Source: Xanthobacter agilis (GTDB lineage Bacteria > Pseudomonadota > Alphaproteobacteria > Rhizobiales > Xanthobacteraceae). From it: a DNA stretch of 41,782 nucleotides. The stretch lies in the NCBI RefSeq assembly GCF_021730435.1, contig NZ_JABWGX010000035.1:1-41782 (forward strand), written 5' to 3'. Within the stretch, counting starts at the first letter, position 1; each line of letters begins with the position of its first letter. Under the pieces are notes generated by a model. The model saw nothing but the letters and a program-made list of their open reading frames with translations. It was not told the DNA's origin and did no database searches. Of the stretch, positions 31,110-41,782 are shown in pieces. Both the position numbers and the translations under genes were made by a program.

Positions 31110-32324
31110 TCAGGCTGGAGCGGCTTCCCACGAGGGGAAGGGGTCGGGCAGGTGCTTGAGCTTGTCGGGGTCGAAGCGCTTGGGGTCGGCCGGGCCCACG
31201 AGGCAGGCGTCGAGGGTGGCGCGCATGGCGCTCTCATCGAGGTTCATGCCGATGAAGACCAGTTCCTGCTTGCGGTCGCCATAGCCGGGCACCCAGTTCG
31301 AGCGGAGCCAGGAGCGCCAATCGGGTTGGGTTGGCCAGTATTCCTTGGGCACGCTCGCCCACCAGCGGCCGATGGTGCCGGTCTGGCAGATGGCGCCGGC
31401 CAAGCTCATCTCGCCCACCCGTCCCGGCCGGGTGGCCAGCCAGAACAGTCCCTTGGCGCGCACCAGGCCGGGCCAGGTCTCGCACAGGAAGTCATGGAAC
31501 CGTTCGGGATGGAACGGCCGGCGGGCCCGGTAGACGAAGCTCGAGACGCCATATTCCTCGGTTTCCGGCACATGATCCTTGAAGCCGTTGAGCTCCTTGA
31601 ACCAGACCGGATGGGTGCTCGCCTTCTCGAAATCGAACCGCCCGGTGCCCAGGACGTCCGAAAGCGCCACCTTTGAATAGTCGGTCTCGATGAGGCAAGC
31701 ATCGGGATTGAGGGATTTCACCACGCCGCGCACGGCGGCGAGCTTCTCCCCATCGACCGCGGACATCTTGTTGAGCACAACCACGTCGGCAAATTCGATC
31801 TGGTCGGTGAGGAGGTCGACCAGGGTGCGGTTGTCCTCGTCGCCGGCGGTCTCGCCCCGGTCGCGCAGGAAGTCGCGGGAGCCGAAGTCCTTGAGCAGGT
31901 TGGCGGCATCCACCACGGTCACCATGGTGTCGAGCCGGGCGATGTCGGAGAGGGATTGGCCGGCCTCGTCGCGAAAGTCGAAGGTGGCGGCGACCGGCAG
32001 CGGCTCGGCGATGCCGGTGGATTCGATCAGCAGGTAGTCGAAGCGCCCCTCGTCGGCCAGGCGGCGCACCTCGGTGAGCAGATCGTCGCGCAGGGTGCAG
32101 CAGATGCAGCCGTTGGTCATCTCCACCAGCTTTTCCTGCGTGTGGGAGAGGTTGGCATTGCCCGAGCGCACCAGTTCGGCGTCGATGTTCACCTCGCTCA
32201 TGTCATTGACGATCACCGCGACCTTGAGCCCCTCGCGGTTGGACAGGATGTGATTGAGAAGCGTCGTTTTTCCCGATCCGAGAAAGCCGGACAATACCGT
32301 CACCGGCAGGCGATTATCCTGCAT
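31110..32324 (-). CDS. COG0523 (CobW-family) GTPase, zinc-linked type
   Basis: The 404-aa protein has Walker [12 protein letters not shown] (13-23), the metal-binding CxCC motif in NGCICC and the NKMSA nucleotide-specificity region. The CobW C-terminal domain ([26 protein letters not shown]) follows. COG0523 GTPases of the ZigA/ZNG1 kind are induced by zinc lack and hand zinc to client enzymes. A palindrome like that in front of zur lies about 65 bp upstream, and GGAG precedes the ATG at eight bases. It is probably its own transcription unit within the island; clients could be the FolE and ThrRS encoded next door. Confidence 0.9.
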
Positions 32325-32390: not shown

Positions 32391-32405
32391 AGATATAATA
32401 TATCA
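32391..32405. promoter_or_regulatory. Putative Zur operator upstream of the COG0523 gene
   Basis: AGATAT-AAT-ATATCA, palindromic core GATAT-N3-ATATC, located between the VOC gene stop (32448) and the GTPase start (32324). The same 15-bp layout occurs at 35448 and 39838, all in otherwise GC-rich DNA. Confidence 0.65.
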
Positions 32406-32447: not shown

Positions 32448-32861
32448 CTATTGGCCCGTTGCCCATTGCGCCGTGTGCACGATGCACAGTTTGTTGCCTT
32501 CCGGATCGCGGACATAGGCGCCGTAATAGTCGGGGCCGTAGTGTGGCCGCAGCCCCGGAGCGCCCTTGTTCGTCCCGCGATGCTGGAGCGCGGCCCTCCA
32601 GGCCGCGTCGACAGCCTCGGGTGAGGGGGCCGCGAGGCTGACCTGCATGCCGTTGCCCCAGGTGGCTGGCAAACCGTTGTATGGGTATTGCACCCACAAT
32701 TGCGGCCAGGCCCGTCCCGGCGGGTGCCAGCACACCCCGTCGGGGCCGCCGTCCGGCTCCGGCGCGGCCCGCTCCAAGCCCAGCGGCGCGAGCAGCGCGT
32801 CATAGAAGCCGGCGAGGCGATCGAGATCGCGCGCGCCGATGATGATGTGACTGAACAGCAT
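32448..32861 (-). CDS. VOC (glyoxalase-like) family protein
   Basis: The 137-aa protein has the vicinal-oxygen-chelate fold: SHIIIGARDLDRLAGFYDALLAPLGLE at the N-terminus, LRPHYGPDYYGAYVRDPEGNKLCIVH at the C-terminus. Members include glyoxalases, resistance proteins and dioxygenases. The ATG at 32861 is fixed by an excellent ribosome binding site (GGGAGGA). An earlier ATG at 32900 would overlap the thrS stop but lacks one. It is the last gene of the zur-thrS-VOC unit. Its link with zinc is unclear; it may be a metal-tolerant substitute for another enzyme. Confidence 0.85.
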   Translation of the reverse strand: MLFSHIIIGARDLDRLAGFYDALLAPLGLERAAPEPDGGPDGVCWHPPGRAWPQLWVQYPYNGLPATWGNGMQVSLAAPSPEAVDAAWRAALQHRGTNKGAPGLRPHYGPDYYGAYVRDPEGNKLCIVHTAQWATGQ

Positions 32862-32896: not shown

Positions 32897-34837
32897 TCAT
32901 GCCGCGGGGCGGAAGGTGCAGCCGGTCGCCGGCGGGCGGGCTTCGGCCGCCAGCAGGCCGAGTACCTCGCGCAACGGCATCGTGGTGCTGTCCTGCGCTT
33001 TCAGGCGGCGCAGGGAGATGGTCTTCTCCATGGCCTCGCGCTTGCCCACCACCAGCAGCACGGGCACCTTGGCCAAGCTGTGCTCGCGCACCTTGTAGGG
33101 GATCTTCTCGTTGCGCAGATCGCTCTCCACCCTGAGCCCGTAGGCCTTGAGCCGGGCGACCACGGCGCGCGCATAATCGTCGGCGTCCGAGGTGATGGTC
33201 GCGACCACCGCCTGCACCGGCGCCAGCCACAAGGGCAATCGCCCGGCGTGATGCTCGATGAGGATGCCCGTGAACCGCTCCAGCGAGCCGAACATGGCCC
33301 GGTGCAGCATCACCGGCGTCACCTTCTGTCCGGCGGCATCGATGTAGAAGGCGCCGAAGCGCGAGGGCAGATTGAAATCCACCTGCAACGTGCCGCACTG
33401 CCAATCGCGGCCGATGGCATCGCGCAACACATATTCGAGCTTGGGACCATAGAAGGCCCCTTCCCCCGCGTTGATGGTGTAGGGGCGGCCCAGGGCGTCG
33501 AGGGCCTGGCGCAAGGCGCCCTCCGCCAGATCCCAGGAGGCATCCGAGCCGATCCGGTGGGCGGGACGCGTCGAAAGCTTGATGCGGACGTCGGTGAAGT
33601 CAAAATCCGCATAGATGGAGAGGATCAGGTCGTTGACCTTGATGCACTCGGCCGTGAGCTGCTCCTCGGTCGAGAAGATGTGCGCATCGTCCTGGGTGAA
33701 GGAGCGCACCCGCAGGAGCCCATGCAGCGCGCCGGACGGCTCGTAGCGGTGCACCTTGCCGAACTCGGCGATCTTCAGCGGCATGTCGCGATAGCTTTTC
33801 AGGCCCTGCTTGTAGATCAGCATGTGACCTGGGCAGTTCATGGGTTTCAGGGCGAAGTCGCGTTCGTCCTCGGTCCGGGTGGTGAACATGTGGTCGCGGT
33901 AGTTCTGCCAATGGCCGGAGGTTTCCCACAGCGCGCGATCCATGATGTCCGGCGTGTTCACCTCCTGGTAGCCGGCCTCGGCCTGACGCGCGCGCATGTA
34001 GCCGATGAGGGTTTGGAACAAGGTCCAGCCCTTGGGATGCCAGAAGACCGAGCCGGGCGCCTCCTCCTGGAAGTGGAACAGGTCCATCTCCCGGCCGAGG
34101 CGGCGATGGTCGCGCTTTTCGGCCTCCTCCAGCATGGCGAGGTGGGCGTCGAGTTCGTCCCGGGTGGCGAAGGCGGTGCCATAGATCCGCGTCAGCATGG
34201 GCTTGGTGGCATCCCCCCGCCAATAGGCGCCCGCCACCTTCGTCAGCTTGAAGGCCGAGCCGATGCGAGCGGTGGAGGGCAGGTGTGGGCCGCGGCACAG
34301 ATCAAGCCACTCTCCCTGGCGGTAGATCGTGATCGGCTCGTCGCCGGGGATTGCATCCACGAGCTCCACCTTGAAGCTCTCGCCGCGCGCCGCAAAGAAG
34401 GCCTGGGCGTCATCCCGGCTCCAGACCTCCTTCGTGATGGCGCGGTCGCGGGCGATGATGTCGCGCATGCGCTGCTCGATGGCGGGCAGGTCTTCCGGCG
34501 TGAAGGGCGTGTCGCGGGCGAAATCATAGAAGAAGCCGTTCTCGATCACCGGGCCGATGGTCACCTGCGTGCCGGGAAACAGCTCCTGCACTGCCTCGGC
34601 GAGCACATGCGCCGCATCGTGACGGATCAGTTCCAGGGCGGCGGGATCGTCGCGGGTCACGATTTCCACATGGGCGTTCGCGGTGATCGCATCGGCGAGG
34701 TCGCGCAGGTGCCCGTCCACCCGCATGGCCACCGCCTTGCGGGCCAGCGACGGCGAGATCGCGGCGGCGATCGCGGTGCCCGTGACGGGAGCCGGGAACA
34801 CGCGCTCGGCGCCATTGGGAAGGGTGATGCAAACCAT
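32897..34837 (-). CDS. thrS: Threonyl-tRNA synthetase
   Basis: A full-length class II synthetase of 646 aa. It has an N-terminal TGS domain, an editing domain with His73, His77, Cys181 and His185, a catalytic core with motif 2 ([12 protein letters not shown]), and a C-terminal anticodon-binding domain. All three catalytic zinc ligands are present (Cys335 in MNCPGH, His386 in DDAHIF, His512 in MLHRAMFGS). It attaches threonine to tRNA-Thr and rejects serine. A thrS gene behind zur suggests an extra copy made during zinc lack, as reported for Zur regulons in other bacteria; whether a second thrS exists elsewhere cannot be seen here. GAGG precedes the ATG. Confidence 0.95.
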
Positions 34838-34915: not shown

Positions 34916-35410
34916 TCAGCCGGCGGATGTGGGATCGGGCGTTGAGGCGCAGGTGGCGCAGGTGCCCTGGAGTTCCACCACGCGCCGCTCAATGCGAAAG
35001 CCGAGCGCGGCGGCCTGATGCGCAAAAAGCGCCTCCACCTTCGGGTCCTCGATCTCCGCCGAGGTGCCGCAGCACGCGCAGATGAAGAACACGCAGGTGT
35101 GGTCGTGATCGGGATGGGCGCAGGGCACGAACGCGTTGCGGCTCTCGATGCGGGCGACGAATTTCTGCTCCATCAGGAAATCCAGGGCGCGATAGACGGT
35201 CGGCGGCGCGAGCCGGCGTTGGAGACGCCGCTGCAATTGCCCGATCAGGTCATAGGCGCCCAGCGGCTGTTCCGAGCGCCACAGGGCCTCCAGGACCAGC
35301 CGTCGCATCGGCGTGAAGCGCAGGCCGCGCGATGCGCAGACGTGTTCCGCCGCCGCCAGCGCGGCCGTGATGGTGTCCGGACTGCGATCGACCGGAATGT
35401 GCATGTCCAA
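34916..35410 (-). CDS. zur: Zinc uptake regulator Zur (Fur family)
   Basis: The 164-aa repressor has a winged HTH (LRFTPMRRLVLEALW, APPTVYRALDFLMEQKFV) and the metal-binding region with His-rich CAHPDHDHTC and the two structural zinc CxxC pairs (CACC and CATC) typical of Zur. With zinc bound it represses zinc-starvation genes. It is transcribed away from folE, with a single palindrome (35448-35462) between them, so it likely controls itself, thrS, the VOC gene and folE. GGGAG precedes the ATG at eight bases. Confidence 0.9.
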   Translation of the reverse strand: MDMHIPVDRSPDTITAALAAAEHVCASRGLRFTPMRRLVLEALWRSEQPLGAYDLIGQLQRRLQRRLAPPTVYRALDFLMEQKFVARIESRNAFVPCAHPDHDHTCVFFICACCGTSAEIEDPKVEALFAHQAAALGFRIERRVVELQGTCATCASTPDPTSAG

Positions 35411-35447: not shown

Positions 35448-35462
35448 TGATATGTTATATCA
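35448..35462. promoter_or_regulatory. Putative Zur operator between zur and folE
   Basis: TGATAT-GTT-ATATCA, a perfect palindrome with 6-bp arms, 38 bp before zur and about 50 bp before folE. One site can serve both divergent promoters. Two more sites share this pattern. Confidence 0.7.
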
Positions 35463-35513
35463 TTACGTGCTAGGCCGCAATCTTAGCCGAACACGATGGG
35501 GAGGGATGGAAGG

Positions 35514-36149
35514 ATGGGTTCTGGAGCGACCGGGATGGCACAGCCGCGGTCCCCCGTGGCACGGCGGCGACCGTCGCGTGCCGATGCGGAGGCCGCCGTG
35601 CGCGTGCTCATCGAATGGGCTGGCGATGATCCCGGCCGCGAAGGTCTCCGCGACACGCCCGCCCGCGTGGCCCGCGCCTATGAGGAGTTCTTCGCGGGTT
35701 ACACCTTCGATCCGGTGGACCTGCTGACCCGCACCTTTGAGGATACGCACGACTATGACGACATGATCATGCTGCGCGACATGCGCTTCGAATCCCACTG
35801 CGAGCACCACATGGTGCCCATCATCGGCAAGGCCCATGTGGCCTATTTGCCGGCCGAGCGGGTGGTCGGCATCAGCAAGCTCGCGCGAGTGGTGGAAGCC
35901 TATGCCAAGCGCCTCCAGATTCAGGAAACGCTCACCGCCCAGGTGGCCGACGCGATCCAGACGGCGCTGCGACCGCGCGGGGTCGCGGTGGTCATCGAGG
36001 CGGCGCACATGTGCATGACGACCCGGGGCATCCGCAAACCCGGGGTCACCATGGTGACCCGACGCCTGACCGGCGCGTTCCGCACGGATGAAGTGCTGCG
36101 CGGCGAGTTCCTCGCCGCCCTCGCCGGACCCAGGGCGCACTTTGGCTGA
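35514..36149 (+). CDS. folE: GTP cyclohydrolase I (FolE, zinc type)
   Basis: The 211-aa enzyme converts GTP to dihydroneopterin triphosphate, the first step of folate and methanopterin-type pterins. Zinc ligands are intact: Cys96 and His99 in SHCEHH, Cys167 in [10 protein letters not shown]. It is therefore the zinc-dependent FolE type, not the metal-flexible FolE2 usually found under Zur. ATG 35514 is preferred because GGGGAGGG lies eight bases upstream; ATG 35496 and ATG 35535 are possible. It shares the presumed Zur operator with zur and ends 15 bp from the convergent fhcC gene, an enzyme system that uses a pterin cofactor. Confidence 0.9.
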
Positions 36150-36164: not shown

Positions 36165-36968
36165 TCAGCCGCAGACGAGGATCTCGCCTTTGCCCAGGGC
36201 GGCCTGATCGCCCACGAAACGGAACGGATCATCGGGAAGCATCTTGGCGAGGTCCAGATGGTGCTTCCCGACCGCACGCCGCAGCAACCGCATGAAGATG
36301 AGGTCGCCCGCCCCGGACGGCATGAAGGTGGGCACGAGCGTTCCGTGGGTGCCGACCGCGATGGTGCCCCGGCGCATGCCCAGCCCCGGTTCGGCGCCGA
36401 CGCTGCGGGCAATCAGCGTGCCGGCGATCATGCGCGATCCGGCGTGATCACCGGTGGCGCCGCCCACCAGCATCAGGCCGCGACGCATGCGGTCGCCGGC
36501 CCGCGGGCCGGCATCCCCGCGGATGACGAGGGTCGCGCCCGCAAGGCCGTAGCGCCCGCCATGGACGGCGCCGCCCGCCTTCTCGGCCGCATTGCCGTGG
36601 ACGACGAGGGTGCCGCCGGTGGCGCCGGCGCCGATGAAGGGGCCGGCATCCCCCCTGACCTCGATGTCGCCGCCCGCCATGTCGAGCCCGCAGCGCTGAC
36701 CCACGTCGCCGTCCACCAGGATGCGGCCGTCGGCGAGGTGCGCCCCCACCTGATCGAACCGCTCCGAGCCGCCTTCGAAGCGCAGCTCGACAGGATCCGC
36801 GCCGGAGACGGCAAACAGGTCGGCCAGCTTGAGGGCGCGCCGGCTCGTGCCCACGGGCAGGCGCTCGATTTCGGCGCGGCTCAGGCGCTGGAGCCGCGCC
36901 GGTACCAGGGACGACAGGTCGAGCCGTTCAGGTGGCGGGGCCTTGAGTGTGAATGTCAAAGCGGTCAT
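36165..36968 (-). CDS. fhcC: Formyltransferase/hydrolase complex subunit C (FhcC/FwdC)
   Basis: The 267-aa protein is rich in the glycine-turn repeats of a beta-helix (LVVHGNAAEKAG, LVIRGDAGPRAGDRMRRG, VGGATGDHAGSRMIAG), the fold shared by FwdC and the glutamate synthase C domain. FhcC holds the FhcA-FhcB core together; in methylotrophs the Fhc complex releases formate from formyl-methanopterin. It follows fhcA by 14 bp on the minus strand. In the usual arrangement fhcD lies in this group, but it is absent here. Confidence 0.88.
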   Translation of the reverse strand: MTALTFTLKAPPPERLDLSSLVPARLQRLSRAEIERLPVGTSRRALKLADLFAVSGADPVELRFEGGSERFDQVGAHLADGRILVDGDVGQRCGLDMAGGDIEVRGDAGPFIGAGATGGTLVVHGNAAEKAGGAVHGGRYGLAGATLVIRGDAGPRAGDRMRRGLMLVGGATGDHAGSRMIAGTLIARSVGAEPGLGMRRGTIAVGTHGTLVPTFMPSGAGDLIFMRLLRRAVGKHHLDLAKMLPDDPFRFVGDQAALGKGEILVCG

Positions 36969-36982
36969 GGGGTGTCCCGGTG

Positions 36983-38611
36983 TCAGACGCGGCAGGGCTG
37001 CGGGGCGAACACGTCCCGCGCGAACGCCGCCTCGGGCACGCGGAAGCTGTCGAGCCCGCGCCCGAACCGGTCCTGCAAATAGGTTTCGGTGCGCCGCGTC
37101 ATGGCGGCATCGGCCTGCGGCGCGAGGGTGAGCGTGCGGCCCCTGTGCACGGCGGCGACGGCGCCCTCGCGGACGATGGTCTCGCCATCCTTCAGCACCA
37201 GCGCGGCGATGGAGAACATGGCGGTGCGGTCCGCCTGATCGCGATAGATGGCGATGTCCGCTTTGGCGCCGGGGGCGAGGTGCCCGCGATCGGCGAGGCC
37301 CAGCAGGCGCGCCGGCGCCGCCCGCGTCATGATCGCCACCTCGGCGAGCGTGAATTCGCGCGCGATGGCCGACAGGCCGCAGCGGGCGACCGCCTTGCTC
37401 GGCAGGTTCGCCAGTTCCCGCGTCCGCTCTTCCTTGTCCATGAGCAGATGGATGAGGCGGGGATAGGCGGTGAAGGGGCCGCCGTTGGGATGGTCAGTTG
37501 TGAGCAGCACGCGCCAGGGATCGGGGCTGAGCAGGAACAGCTCCAGCCCGATCATGAATTGCAGGGCGTTGAAGACGCTGCCCCGCTTGTAATTGAACGG
37601 AACCAGCCCGCCGCCTTCGGCATCGCCGTCCACGATGATCCATTTCTTCGGGTCCGCCGCGCCCCGCGCCGAGAACTGGCGCAGGATGTCGAGCGAGATG
37701 GTGCAGGTCTGGCCAAACACCACCTGGCCCACGTCCAGCGTCACGTTGGGATGGGCGGCGAGCGCCGCGCACAGGGTTTCCGCGGCGGAGGAGATGCCGC
37801 CGGCCGTATGCGCCGCATAGGCGTAGAATTGCGCATGAGCGAAGTGGATGGGCCGGCCTTCCGCCGTCCGCATGGTTTCGATCATGGTCTCGAACGCGCC
37901 GGGCGCGCCGAGGTTGTTGCAATGGACATGGAGCGGATGCGGCACGCCCACCGCCTCGTGCGCATCGAGCAGCGCGGTGAGGATGCGCCGGGAGGTGAGG
38001 CCATAGCTCGGCACCTCGTCGTCGAGGTCGAAGGTCCGGACATTCTCCTTGAAGGCCGCCGCTCCGCCGGCATTGATGACCTTGAGCCCCAGCCCGCGCG
38101 AGAGGGCGAGGGTCTGCGCGGTGAGGTCGCGGACCGCGGTGCGGCTCTCGCCGGCCCGCAGCAGCGCCAGCAGCTGGTCGTCATTGCCCATGACGGTGAG
38201 GGCGCCCCGGTCGATGAAGGGCACATCCTCCAGTTCCAGATGGGTGGCCAGCGCCGCCGAGGGGGGCAGGGCCGGCTCGATCACGGTGGTGTAGCCCATG
38301 CGGGCATAAAGCCGCCCGGTCTGTGCCGCCGAGCCGCACGCCGAACCGAAGGGCCGGTTGGGATCGCCCAGCTCGTTCACATGCAGTTCCGGCAGCAGCA
38401 GCCGGGAGAGGATGACGTTGCCGCCGGCGATGTGCGAATGCACGTCGATGGCGCCCGCCATCACCACCATTCCGGTGGCGTCGATGACGTGGTCGGGCGT
38501 GCGGGATTCGGGCGCCGCGATGATGCGATCCCCCTCGACCCAGACCTCGCCGATGCCGTCGCGACCATGGGCGGGATCGATGACGCGACCGCCGCGAATG
38601 AGAGTCAGCAT
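36983..38611 (-). CDS. fhcA: Formyltransferase/hydrolase complex subunit A (FhcA/FwdA amidohydrolase)
   Basis: The 542-aa metal-dependent amidohydrolase starts MLTLIRGGRVIDPA and shows metal ligands typical of FwdA: HSH (about residues 58-60), the lysine region AFKENVRTFD, HVHCNN, IHFAHAQFYAY and the aspartate in TTDHPNGGPF. FhcA hydrolyses the formyl group from the methanofuran-like carrier to formate. ATG 38611 overlaps the fhcB stop (ATGCTGA), showing coupling; a longer frame to 38734 is an artefact. Archaeal FwdA has a two-zinc site, so placing this gene under zinc control would make sense if a backup enzyme is needed. Confidence 0.92.
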   Translation of the reverse strand: MLTLIRGGRVIDPAHGRDGIGEVWVEGDRIIAAPESRTPDHVIDATGMVVMAGAIDVHSHIAGGNVILSRLLLPELHVNELGDPNRPFGSACGSAAQTGRLYARMGYTTVIEPALPPSAALATHLELEDVPFIDRGALTVMGNDDQLLALLRAGESRTAVRDLTAQTLALSRGLGLKVINAGGAAAFKENVRTFDLDDEVPSYGLTSRRILTALLDAHEAVGVPHPLHVHCNNLGAPGAFETMIETMRTAEGRPIHFAHAQFYAYAAHTAGGISSAAETLCAALAAHPNVTLDVGQVVFGQTCTISLDILRQFSARGAADPKKWIIVDGDAEGGGLVPFNYKRGSVFNALQFMIGLELFLLSPDPWRVLLTTDHPNGGPFTAYPRLIHLLMDKEERTRELANLPSKAVARCGLSAIAREFTLAEVAIMTRAAPARLLGLADRGHLAPGAKADIAIYRDQADRTAMFSIAALVLKDGETIVREGAVAAVHRGRTLTLAPQADAAMTRRTETYLQDRFGRGLDSFRVPEAAFARDVFAPQPCRV

Positions 38612-39795
38612 GGGTGGCCCCTTTCCATGGTGACCCGTTCGGTGAGGGCATCGAGAATGACGGCGGCGGCGGGGCGGTCCGTGCGCGGCGCGGTCGCGGG
38701 GCGGAAGGTCATGGTGGCGCGTTCGGCGTCCCACAGGGTGCCGGCGCTGTCCCGCCCGGGAGCGGCGACTGCGACCACGATATCCGCTTCATCCCCCCTC
38801 GGGTCGGCGAGGAGCGCGAGCGCGGGCAATGATCGCGTCCATGCGGGCGGGGGCACGGACGGGTGGACCCAGACCAGCGTGTCCGCTTCGCCGGAGCAGA
38901 CCTGCCGTTCCGCGTTGAACCGCCAGGGGTCGTGCTCGGGAACGCCGCGCCCGAGGCCACTGCGTGGCGCCTGGCCCAGCGTCCAGGCGCTGACCGCGAC
39001 GACAAGCCGTGCGGCCGGTTCGACCAGGGCGCAGCTCGAAAACCGCGTGGTGGCATTGAGATCGCGCATGAGGCCGAGGACCATGTCCACGCCCATTTCG
39101 CCAAGCTCGGCGGGATCGTACAGAACGACGCCGAACCGTGCCCCTTTCAGGGCGCGGGCCACGTCCGCATGCTCCGGTCGTGCCGAGGGGCGCGACGCCA
39201 GCGCCGCGCGCAGCAGGCCCAGGGTGGGCACGAGCCCCGCTGGCGCCGGCATCGCTTCGGCGCCGGCGCGGATGCCGCCAAGCGCGATCACGCGGCGTTC
39301 GGTGCCCGCGGCTTGGCGGGGGGGCGTGCCGGCACAGGTGAAATCCGTCACCGCATGGTCTGTCGCGCGGCCGACAAGCAGCAGGAGATCGGCACGGGCG
39401 CGCGCTTCAGCCGGCGTGGTCGCCATGGCCCCCGAAGCCGCCAGCACCGAGAGTTCGGAATACGCACCGTCCAAGTCCGAGCCGTCGAGCGCGGCACCGC
39501 TCGCCTGGGCCAGGCGAAAGGCCGCGCGCAGCGCCTCCACATCTCCGCCAAGGCCGGCAACAACCGGCGTATGCGCCCGCGCCAATCGCGCCCCGGCGCG
39601 GGCGACGGCCTCATCTATGGATATGGGACGCCCCGCCGCCCAAGCGGGGGGAGCGCGACCTTCGAGGGTGGAAGGGGGAGATGACACGTCGAGAACCACG
39701 GGACGCAGCTTTCCTGATGGAAAATTCAGGGTGGGCCGTCCAACGGTGGCGTAGGCCTTGCCGTCCCGGCCAGAAGTCCCTGTCCGCGCGTCCAA
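38605..39795 (-). CDS. fhcB: Formyltransferase/hydrolase complex subunit B (FhcB)
   Basis: The protein resembles bacterial FhcB, a FwdB homologue that has lost the Mo/W and iron-sulfur sites: AWAAGRPISIDEAVARAGARLARAHTPVVAGLGGDVEALRAA, then a DLLLLVGRATDH block and a C-terminal redox-cofactor-free region. The start is uncertain. The frame runs to a TTG at 39795 (396 aa), but there is no ATG; a GTG at 39699 has AGGAAAG nine bases upstream and would give a protein nearer the usual length. It heads the fhcB-A-C operon, about 40-140 bp after a presumed Zur operator. Confidence 0.82.
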   Translation of the reverse strand: MDARTGTSGRDGKAYATVGRPTLNFPSGKLRPVVLDVSSPPSTLEGRAPPAWAAGRPISIDEAVARAGARLARAHTPVVAGLGGDVEALRAAFRLAQASGAALDGSDLDGAYSELSVLAASGAMATTPAEARARADLLLLVGRATDHAVTDFTCAGTPPRQAAGTERRVIALGGIRAGAEAMPAPAGLVPTLGLLRAALASRPSARPEHADVARALKGARFGVVLYDPAELGEMGVDMVLGLMRDLNATTRFSSCALVEPAARLVVAVSAWTLGQAPRSGLGRGVPEHDPWRFNAERQVCSGEADTLVWVHPSVPPPAWTRSLPALALLADPRGDEADIVVAVAAPGRDSAGTLWDAERATMTFRPATAPRTDRPAAAVILDALTERVTMERGHPC

Positions 39796-39837
39796 GGCGC
39801 AATGCAGGCCCAGACGCTTCGAACAGATTCGACTTTA

Positions 39838-39852
39838 TGATATAAGATATCA
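39838..39852. promoter_or_regulatory. Putative Zur operator upstream of fhcB
   Basis: TGATAT-AAG-ATATCA, extended to a 17-bp perfect palindrome by the flanking A and T (39837-39853). It is the most symmetric of the three copies and lies directly before the fhcB-A-C operon. Confidence 0.65.
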
Positions 39853-39960
39853 TCTGACAACGGGTGCTGGCGGCCGACCTGACACAGGGGGCGATGCGGT
39901 GTCGGGCTGCATCGGCACCTGCGGCTGATACCGGCGTCGGCCACGCGTGCTTGAAGCAGT

Positions 39961-40200
39961 GTGCGCCTCGGCGATCTTGGGGGCGTCCCGATCCGGTCGC
40001 GCGGCCGGGTGGCGCTGCTGGGTGATGCTGCGCACTGGCTGACGCTGATCACCGGACAGGGCGCGGGCATGGCCCTCACCTCCGCCGCCATTCGTGCGGA
40101 TGCGCTCTCACGCATCGGCACCGCGCGCCCTCGGCATCCCGATCATCGCGCTTGCGAAAGGCGGCGATCCTTCATGGTAGGGCTTTTCGCCACGGCCTGG
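39961..40200 (+). pseudogene. FAD-dependent monooxygenase fragment
   Basis: A short frame holds the GRVALLGDAAH motif and the following GQGAGMALTSAAI segment, which in FAD_binding_3 aromatic hydroxylases is the second flavin-binding motif near residue 300. The N-terminal Rossmann part is missing: an in-frame stop lies just upstream (TGA 39952). After ADALS the similarity fades, with only a weak ERRRSFM trace. It is a remnant of a flavoprotein hydroxylase. The rest of 39853-40253 holds no gene that I can support. Confidence 0.6.
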
Positions 40201-40253
40201 AGTAATTTTTCCACCGCCTGGGATCAGGGTAGTCAACGGCACAGCCTTCGTTT

Positions 40254-41615
40254 ATGTTGCCGCGCTTTTTCCAGCCTGAATGTCTCTTCGTGACCCCCGC
40301 CGCCCGTCTGCAAGCTACTCTTGATCTGATGTATGAAGTCGATGGTGTCGCGCGCCCCGCCGATGCTGTCGTAGCGGCATGGTTTCGGGCCCGCCGCTAT
40401 ATCGGCGACAGGGATCGTGTCCATATTGCCGATCTGCTCTATGCGCTACTGCGTCATCACGCACGAATAGCGTGGTGGTTGGCGAAGCATGGACGCCCGG
40501 ACGTGCCGCGCAACCGGCTGCTGGCGTGGCTTGCGCTCGATGGGCGCACGACGCCGGATCAGGTCCATGTCCTGTTCAACGGTGGCAAGTTCGCGCCGGC
40601 GGTCTTGAGGGATCACGAGCGCGCGCTGGTGGCCAAGTTGCAGGGCTGCGCGATCGACCATCCGGCCATGCCGGACGAGGTGCGCTTTGAATGTCCGTCC
40701 TGGGCGGCCGAGCCATTGCGGCGCCGCTTCCGCGACTCTTTTGGGCGCGAGATGGCCGCGCTTCTGACGGCCGCCCCGCTCGATCTGCGCGTCAATCCTC
40801 TCAAGTCCACGCGCGAGGCCATGCTGCGCGCGCTGCGCGATTTCGGCCTTAAGGCCGAGGCGGCGCGCATGGCGCCTTACGGCATTCGCGTGAAAGAGCG
40901 TCCCTCATTGGCCAGCCTGCCCATGTTGAGAAGCGGCGAGGTCGAGATCCAGGACGAGGGCTCGCAGCTTGTCGCCATGCTGGTCGACGCGCGACCGGGC
41001 GAGCGCGTGGTCGATTTTTGCGCCGGAGCGGGCGGCAAGACGCTGGCCATTGCCGCGCAGATGGCGAACAAGGGCCATGTCATGGCCTGCGACGTCCTCG
41101 CCAACCGTTTGAAGCGCGCGGCCGAGCGTTTTCGGCGCGCCGGGCTCCATAATATCGAGACCAAGCCCTTGGCCAGCGAAACGGATCGCTGGGTGAAGCG
41201 TCACAAGGGCGGTTTCGATCGCGTGCTGGTCGATGCGCCATGCAGCGGCACCGGCACATGGCGGCGCAATCCCGATGCGCGCTGGCGCCCGCTGGGAGCT
41301 GGGCTGGATCATCTTCTGCCGCTGCAAGCCAGTATTCTTGCGAGCGCGGCGCGGCTTGTGAAGCCCGGCGGACGGCTCGTCTACGCCACATGTTCCATGC
41401 TGCCCGAGGAAAACGAGGAGCAGGTGGCCGCCTTCCTTGCGGCGCATCCCGCCTTTCAGGTGGTGCCGCTGCGCGCGGCCGCGCCGCAATTGACCGGTTC
41501 GGCGCATCCAGACCACCTGTCGCTGACGCCCGCGCGCCACGATACCGACGGCTTTTTCGCGGCCGTCATGCAGCGCAACGCCGAGGCCTTGTCCGAGGAG
41601 CCATCGGCGGAATAA
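40254..41615 (+). CDS. RsmB/NOP2-family 23S/16S rRNA m5C methyltransferase
   Basis: The 453-aa protein has an N-terminal helical NusB-like part, then the SAM-dependent methyltransferase domain: VDFCAGAGGKTLAIAAQM (motif I), DAPCSGTGTWRRNPDARW (motif IV) and ATCSMLPEENEEQV with the catalytic cysteine (motif VI). It methylates a cytosine C5 in ribosomal RNA; RsmB acts on 16S C967 in E. coli. The start is not certain: GTG 40290 (VTPAARLQATLDLMYEVDG) fits the family better, while ATG 40254 has no ribosome binding site. A perfect hairpin 26 bp past the stop may end its transcript. Confidence 0.9.
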   Translation: MLPRFFQPECLFVTPAARLQATLDLMYEVDGVARPADAVVAAWFRARRYIGDRDRVHIADLLYALLRHHARIAWWLAKHGRPDVPRNRLLAWLALDGRTTPDQVHVLFNGGKFAPAVLRDHERALVAKLQGCAIDHPAMPDEVRFECPSWAAEPLRRRFRDSFGREMAALLTAAPLDLRVNPLKSTREAMLRALRDFGLKAEAARMAPYGIRVKERPSLASLPMLRSGEVEIQDEGSQLVAMLVDARPGERVVDFCAGAGGKTLAIAAQMANKGHVMACDVLANRLKRAAERFRRAGLHNIETKPLASETDRWVKRHKGGFDRVLVDAPCSGTGTWRRNPDARWRPLGAGLDHLLPLQASILASAARLVKPGGRLVYATCSMLPEENEEQVAAFLAAHPAFQVVPLRAAAPQLTGSAHPDHLSLTPARHDTDGFFAAVMQRNAEALSEEPSAE

Positions 41616-41641: not shown

Positions 41642-41687
41642 CCTAGAGCATTTCCGGTGAACTCCCGTTCACCGGAAATGCTCTAGG
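41642..41687. repeat. Perfect 21-bp-arm inverted repeat
   Basis: The arm 41642-41662 (CCTAGAGCATTTCCGGTGAA plus C) pairs without mismatch with 41667-41687 around a TCCC loop. Its CTAGAGCATTT tip resembles intergenic repeat elements and IS ends common in rhizobial-type genomes. It can act as a bidirectional hairpin terminator after the methyltransferase gene, or be an end of the adjacent IS5-type element. Confidence 0.7.
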
Positions 41688-41704: not shown

Positions 41705-41782
41705 CTATCTGAGCCAGATGGCGATTGCGGCGAGTTTGACGAAGCCCATGAAGTTGGCGAGGAGCTTGTCGTATCGTGTGGC
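41705..41782 (-). mobile_element. IS5-type transposase, C-terminal end
   Basis: Reading the minus strand from the window edge gives ATRYDKLLANFMGFVKLAAI followed by AIWLR and a TAG at 41705-41707. This is the typical C-terminus of IS4/IS5-family DDE transposases (RYDKxxxNFxxxVxLAAxxIWL). The rest of the element lies outside the window. Confidence 0.75.

Follow-up and report, generated by a model that had tools for sequence, protein, structure and literature searches.

Duplicate zinc enzymes that are controlled by Zur and clustered with COG0523 genes form a published class (Haas et al. 2009, PMC2770081). Nine families are given there: HisI, PyrC, Cam, HemB, CysRS, ThrRS, N-acetylmuramoyl-alanine amidase, QueD and DksA; formylmethanofuran is absent from the main text of that paper. 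In Anabaena, the threonyl-tRNA synthetase (ThrRS) T2 is described as controlled by Zur; it keeps its zinc ligands, is active in low zinc by a mechanism that is not known, and mixes with T1 subunits (PMC4787780). Here we analyse an operon, fhcB2-fhcA2-fhcC2, which codes for subunits of the formyltransferase/hydrolase complex (Fhc) in Xanthobacter agilis. It lies on a contig of 41 782 nucleotides (NZ_JABWGX010000035.1; hereafter the window), which is one entire contig of a 66-contig, 4.8-Mb genome (C28). We consider it probable, at roughly 60 per cent, that this operon came in by lateral transfer as a spare of the part of Fhc that bears zinc, and was placed under Zur. The operon is intact, retains its likely metal-site residues and has a zinc-gene box of the genus type in the promoter region of fhcB2; a second Zur, a second ThrRS, a second FolE and a zinc chaperone gene stand in the same cluster. 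An Fhc duplicate at a Zur-type box would be an addition to the known class.

As in the clusters of Haas et al., candidate Zur boxes accompany zur, a COG0523 gene, a paralogue of thrS and further duplicated zinc enzymes at this locus; zinc residues are kept in several of the paralogues described in that paper, as they appear to be in FhcA2. It differs from them in three respects: Fhc, unlike ThrRS, is outside the nine families; the duplicate is a C1 enzyme of several subunits from which the formyltransferase subunit has been left out; and FolE is here the type I enzyme, not FolE2. Like Anabaena thrS2, the operon appears to be a Zur-linked, zinc-dependent duplicate with its ligands kept and a COG0523 gene adjoining, whereas T2 is a tRNA synthetase with one kind of subunit. 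The original prediction, made from the letters of the window, held that zinc-starvation control of Fhc was not known to have been described. Fhc is absent from the nine families, but Zur-controlled duplicates of zinc enzymes are as such a published phenomenon (PMC2770081), which the prediction had not taken into account. Among the titles and abstract openings listed from the open-licence literature, no report was found that ties Zur or zinc shortage to Fhc, methylofuran, tetrahydromethanopterin (H4MPT) or the formaldehyde oxidation of methylotrophs.

The operon occupies positions 39795–36165 on the minus strand. Its genes appear to form a single unit, because the stop of fhcB2 overlaps the start of fhcA2 and fhcC2 follows fhcA2 after 14 bases, a space from which fhcD is cleanly absent. 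FhcA2 (604.5 bits on TIGR03121, cut-off 392.75) and FhcC2 (195.4 bits on TIGR03122, cut-off 130.65) pass their family models; FhcB2, with 75.8 bits on TIGR03129, is under the NCBIfam cut-off of 327.8. All three subunits match the solved Fhc complex 6s6y, which we take to be that of Methylorubrum extorquens: FhcA2 matches chain A (E 2.7e-223), residues 51–394 of FhcB2 match chain B (E 7.5e-70) and FhcC2 matches chain C (E 2.6e-68). The real start of fhcB2 probably lies well downstream of the TTG at 39795, because the homology begins at residue 51. In contrast to the Fhc of 6s6y, fhcB2A2C2 has no fhcD, is preceded by a Zur-type box and is a second copy in its genome. The three genes that had been named from the open reading frames, FhcA and its partners FhcB and FhcC, are thus all identified.

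The metal site was examined by comparison with 88 other FhcA sequences (87 distinct in all, FhcA2 included). FhcA2 deviates at two of the 119 near-invariant columns (D22E and A353M); the near-invariant His and Lys residues are all kept, and so are the Asp residues except D22. By analogy with PyrC (PMC2770081), the retained HxH pair H58/H60, together with K177, H228/H230, H256/H259 and D373, is likely to be the metal site. FhcA2 therefore looks like a spare zinc enzyme and not a zinc-free substitute, and the latter possibility was rejected. A further comparison, with 41 other loci, shows few deviations at near-invariant columns in FhcA2 (4/198), FhcC2 (1/59) and FhcB2 (1/24), which argues against a decaying gene.

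The 17-bp sequence in front of fhcB2, ATGATATAAGATATCAT, is a perfect 7-3-7 palindrome, both 7-base arms being fully complementary. It is enclosed by a promoter-like pair, TTGTCA (39860–39855) and TAAAGT (39837–39832). The promoter itself is weak evidence, because the 10.9-kb region contains three promoter-like sites against a mean of 1.1 in shuffled sequences. The core TGATATNNNATATCA has two exact matches in the whole genome, the fhcB2 palindrome and the box between zur2 and folE, 4.4 kb apart; 0.014 are expected from base composition. Three further sites have one mismatch: the box before zigA, a site on contig C65 that precedes an aztAB-type zinc transporter, and a site on contig C39 (C39:19380) that precedes a Porin_2-type gene. 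With up to two mismatches, there are 30 sites, against six for the reversed control pattern. The claim that the same palindrome pattern stands before zur and before a COG0523 gene is therefore borne out, exactly in the former case and with one mismatch in the latter. The palindrome is apparently the candidate Zur box of fhcB2. A chance palindrome is unlikely, judging by the exact-match counts, the matrix score (see below) and the full symmetry; the looser controls are less clear.

The box was defined independently: TGATAYANTRTATCA, two mismatches being allowed, was searched for in our genome and its 13 siblings (14 in all in the genus), and the genes after some of the sites were inspected. In our genome, the pattern has 13 matches and its backwards control none, but the control exceeds the pattern in four of the 13 siblings (G545, G583, G501 and G597). 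Most of the two-mismatch sites are therefore noise, and the signal is carried by the exact and one-mismatch sites. The box precedes an aztAB-type zinc transporter in all 13 siblings (nine exact, four with one mismatch), zigA in six and a porin in two. We infer Zur as its regulator from the zinc genes behind it. The family models point to an Azt-type identity for the transporter: AztA scores 218.9 bits in our genome and 220.7 in sibling G433 (cut-off 220), and the AztB match is a fragment of 102.4 bits (cut-off 280). In Paracoccus, the low-zinc response includes aztABC and yciC, according to a review (PMC6103462). The transporter on C65 is followed by a binding-protein-like frame with a His-rich stretch and by a second COG0523-like frame (L189:1496-5476; by visual inspection). 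The Porin_2-type gene, which carries the box in our genome and in two siblings, is a candidate zinc-uptake porin. One-mismatch sites of the genus motif, e.g. TGATATAAAGTATCA, also occur in three siblings (L212, L214 and L220).

A matrix was built from 21 sibling sites, none of them from our genome, with training scores from 24.7 to 30.6. The zigA box scores 27.6, the zur2/folE box 25.6 and the fhcB2 box 22.8; in random sequence of genome size, sites of at least 22.8 occur with a mean of 0.1 (10 runs, one strand). The fhcB2 box ranks sixth among 33 scored candidate sites of the genome, which were chosen by pattern and not by a genome-wide matrix scan. The fifth-ranked site (C10:6532; 24.3) sits inside a long open reading frame and is probably due to chance. 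The fhcB2 box thus appears to be a good one, yet the weakest among the five assigned boxes of the genome. In 93 other fhcB upstream regions (88 without doubles, the operon on contig C9 of our own genome included), the best score is 3.05, against 22.8 for fhcB2, and the box as a common trait of fhc operons was rejected.

The features of the cluster are listed in table 1. A complete fhcBADC operon is present elsewhere in the genome, on contig C9. Its FhcA is 50 per cent identical to FhcA2, its FhcD passes TIGR03119, and no Zur-type box is found upstream (fhc is the one duplicated system whose other copy was checked for a box). For this reason fhcB2A2C2 is considered the second, apparently Zur-linked copy. 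The other FolE is encoded on C17. Within the genus, our genome is the only one of 14 with two Zur matches at E 1e-20; one sibling, G590 (88% complete), has none. The Cys/His motifs kept in ThrS2 and FolE are those that we take to be of zinc sites. The co-location of zur and a COG0523 gene with fhcB2A2C2, the fit of the palindrome to the genus-wide zinc-gene box, the boxless other operon and neighbours that form a known set of duplicates support the predicted, apparent Zur control. The proposal of a spare enzyme for zinc-poor conditions is likewise supported by the second copy, the retention of the likely metal-site residues and the duplicate cluster. The missing fhcD, the different Fhc lineage and the second copies of Zur, ThrRS and FolE had not been part of that prediction.

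Table 1. Features of the zinc cluster in the window (positions on the contig; strand + or -, a point where none applies).
Feature	Position	Strand	Remarks
zigA, COG0523-type zinc metallochaperone GTPase	31110..32324	-	NF038288, 607.6 bits, cut-off 600
Box before zigA	32391..32405	.	one mismatch
Small glyoxalase-like gene	32448..32861	-	downstream of thrS2
thrS2, second threonyl-tRNA synthetase	32897..34837	-	69% identical to the C17 copy
zur2, second Zur-like gene	34916..35410	-	44% identical to the C63 copy common to the genus
Box separating the divergent zur2 and folE	35448..35462	.	exact match to TGATATNNNATATCA
folE, GTP cyclohydrolase I	35496..36149	+	the genome has two; motifs of the zinc ligands retained
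fhcC2	36165..36968	-	starts 14 bases past fhcA2; fhcD not in between
fhcA2	36983..38611	-	amidohydrolase-type subunit; likely metal-site residues retained
fhcB2	38605..39795	-	3' end overlaps fhcA2 start; listed start at 39795 probably too early
17-bp palindrome, candidate Zur operator of fhcB2A2C2	39837..39853	.	within the spacer of the promoter-like pair

Contamination of the contig is not supported. In tetranucleotide frequencies, the window correlates with our other contigs at r = 0.89 and its zur-fhc part at r = 0.79; the comparison values are 0.78–0.91 for the other contigs themselves, 0.81–0.91 for siblings, and 0.77 and 0.84 for two loci of family f50 (see below). ZigA is 87–88% identical to that of the siblings. 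Between the palindrome and rsmB there is a small plus-strand frame (39961–40293) with no Pfam hit, presumably a fragment of an FAD monooxygenase by its motif. At the end of the contig, a perfect 21-base inverted repeat (41642–41687) and a 25-residue C-terminal reading frame (41705–41782) are found, which we take to be the edge of an insertion sequence.

Relatives of Zur2 (E 1e-40 or better; 51–63% identical) are present in seven genomes of the order. In five of these, zur adjoins folE, and GTTATAAC or GTTATAAT lies between the two genes in all five loci (by visual inspection); a pattern search did not reveal a GTTATAAC-type box in our genome. At the seven related loci (L176, L177, L178, L179 and L181 among them), a scan of selected open reading frames gave phosphoribosyl-AMP cyclohydrolase (hisI), cysS, thrS, dihydroorotase, COG0523 and DUF1826 genes, a content that resembles the clusters of Haas et al. 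(PMC2770081). The FhcA hits in the order (E 1e-100) include none of these seven genomes.

FhcA was detected at E 1e-100 in 79 of 397 genomes of the order and in 62 of 391 of the family, our own being included in both counts. The closest relatives of FhcA2 (72–73% identical) belong to family f50: four of its five genomes have one, in each case with a complete fhcBADC. At E 1e-100, eleven of the 13 siblings have one FhcA each, near the C9 type and 47–50% identical to FhcA2; the two without a match are 88 and 93 per cent complete, and none of the 13 siblings gave an FhcA of the FhcA2 type. A quick tree of 87 FhcA sequences puts FhcA2 together with f50 and Methylobacterium (SH-aLRT 99), with an open position within that group and a branch flagged as long: it is one of five long end branches (0.34; median 0.045). 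The C9 FhcA groups with its own genus (96, open) and with genome G575 (100). The place of FhcA2 in the tree makes lateral transfer the most likely origin of the copy.

Gene order was compared in 95 fhc loci, which include five overlapping pairs and thus represent 90 distinct ones; in 19 of the 95 the flanks span only 1.5 kb, and contig ends truncate some more, which leaves distant neighbours out of view there. The order is B-A-D-C in 90 of the 95 (85 of the 90 distinct); two are cut at a contig end and three contain B-A only. Within the flanks covered, zur, folE and thrS were not detected at any of the 95, and one has a zigA-like fragment at a distance of about 8 kb. In family f32, three genomes (L130, L132 and L135) have a second fhc locus in which fhcB and fhcA alone were detected; fhcD and fhcC were negative by tblastn in the stretch examined. 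The search for a Zur-linked donor gave no FhcA above 73 per cent identity, our own aside, in the 397 order, 391 family and five f50 genomes, only part of the order and family hits having been opened. Relatives of at most 65 per cent were seen in 39 loci of genome_contigs (exact peptide pattern scan), and of less than 60 per cent in 39 plasmid records (identity alone compared). The check proposed with the original prediction, a search of related genomes for fhcB-A-C next to zur, folE or COG0523, thus gave no orthologous Zur-linked operon, and the ordinary fhcBADC operons have no box, so that the proposed comparison of orthologous operons does not apply in that form.

Several results weigh against a spare copy under Zur. 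With up to three mismatches, the window has eight matches to the core where 4.0 are expected, and five of 100 shuffles reach eight; the broader pattern TGWTATNNNATAWCA has, with up to one mismatch, six matches and its control five. The score of the fhcB2 box is below the lowest of the 21 training sites. The arrangement is found in one genome only. The sole FhcD seen, that of C9, belongs to the other lineage and is 57–58% identical to f50 FhcD; no second fhcD was seen besides it, although no search was aimed at one. The fit of the two Fhc lineages would be the weakest step of the proposal.

The main rival is that FhcBAC2 is controlled by Zur but has changed its job: lacking FhcD, it would accept no formyl groups from H4MPT any more and would instead hydrolyse free formyl-methylofuran or some other formyl or amide compound. 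The clean absence of fhcD from an operon whose counterparts nearly all have it, the foreign lineage of the FhcD seen and the long branch of FhcA2 would fit such a change. The near-invariant residues of the three subunits are nearly all kept, however, which suggests unchanged chemistry and partners, and we find this explanation unlikely. Rather more doubtful is that the operon is a passenger; after lateral transfer and the loss of fhcD, it would have fallen under the Zur box by position, without benefit. An incomplete operon in a single genome, with no such FhcA in the siblings, would agree with this, but the three frames are intact and conserved and a fully symmetric box lies in a promoter-like spacer. 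That the palindrome belongs to another regulator and merely resembles a Zur box is very improbable: the score below all training sites and the higher-scoring C10 site inside a reading frame speak for it, but the only two exact matches in the genome are those at fhcB2 and zur2/folE.

If the operon is a spare copy under Zur, as we favour, zinc-loaded Zur (the native Zur, Zur2 or both) would sit on the box and block transcription, and zinc shortage would release fhcB2A2C2, folE, zur2-thrS2 and zigA together. FhcA2 would then supplement or replace the FhcA of the C9 operon (FhcA1), and ZigA may supply zinc preferentially to the new enzymes. FhcD is not known to have a zinc site, which would explain why fhcD alone is missing from the operon. 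Fhc binds methylofuran tightly, and this cofactor shuttles formyl groups between two active sites (PMC8141765), so that a working FhcBAC2 should need FhcD. FhcBAC2 would bind the FhcD of C9 and sustain the conversion of formyl-H4MPT to formate, as a cross-lineage hybrid, since FhcBAC2 belongs to the f50/Methylobacterium lineage and this FhcD to another. Anabaena T2 (PMC4787780) is the best model for how FhcBAC2 could work in low zinc and with subunits of the other copy.

A more specific proposition, which we put forward tentatively and with the odds somewhat against it, is that Fhc has been split by metal need. The zinc-bearing half and its scaffold subunits, of foreign origin, would alone have been duplicated and brought under the control of Zur; joined to the FhcD already present, they would form a hybrid that sustains formaldehyde oxidation when the cell is starved of zinc. 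The other form of this proposition is a free-standing FhcBAC hydrolase with a new substrate. Zur control of the operon would link zinc supply to C1 (formaldehyde/formate) metabolism and would add an enzyme of several subunits to those zinc enzymes of which bacteria keep duplicates under Zur. Because its likely zinc ligands are kept, FhcA2 would also bear on what keeps such duplicates active in low zinc, be it copy number, affinity, loading by a chaperone or the mixing of subunits.

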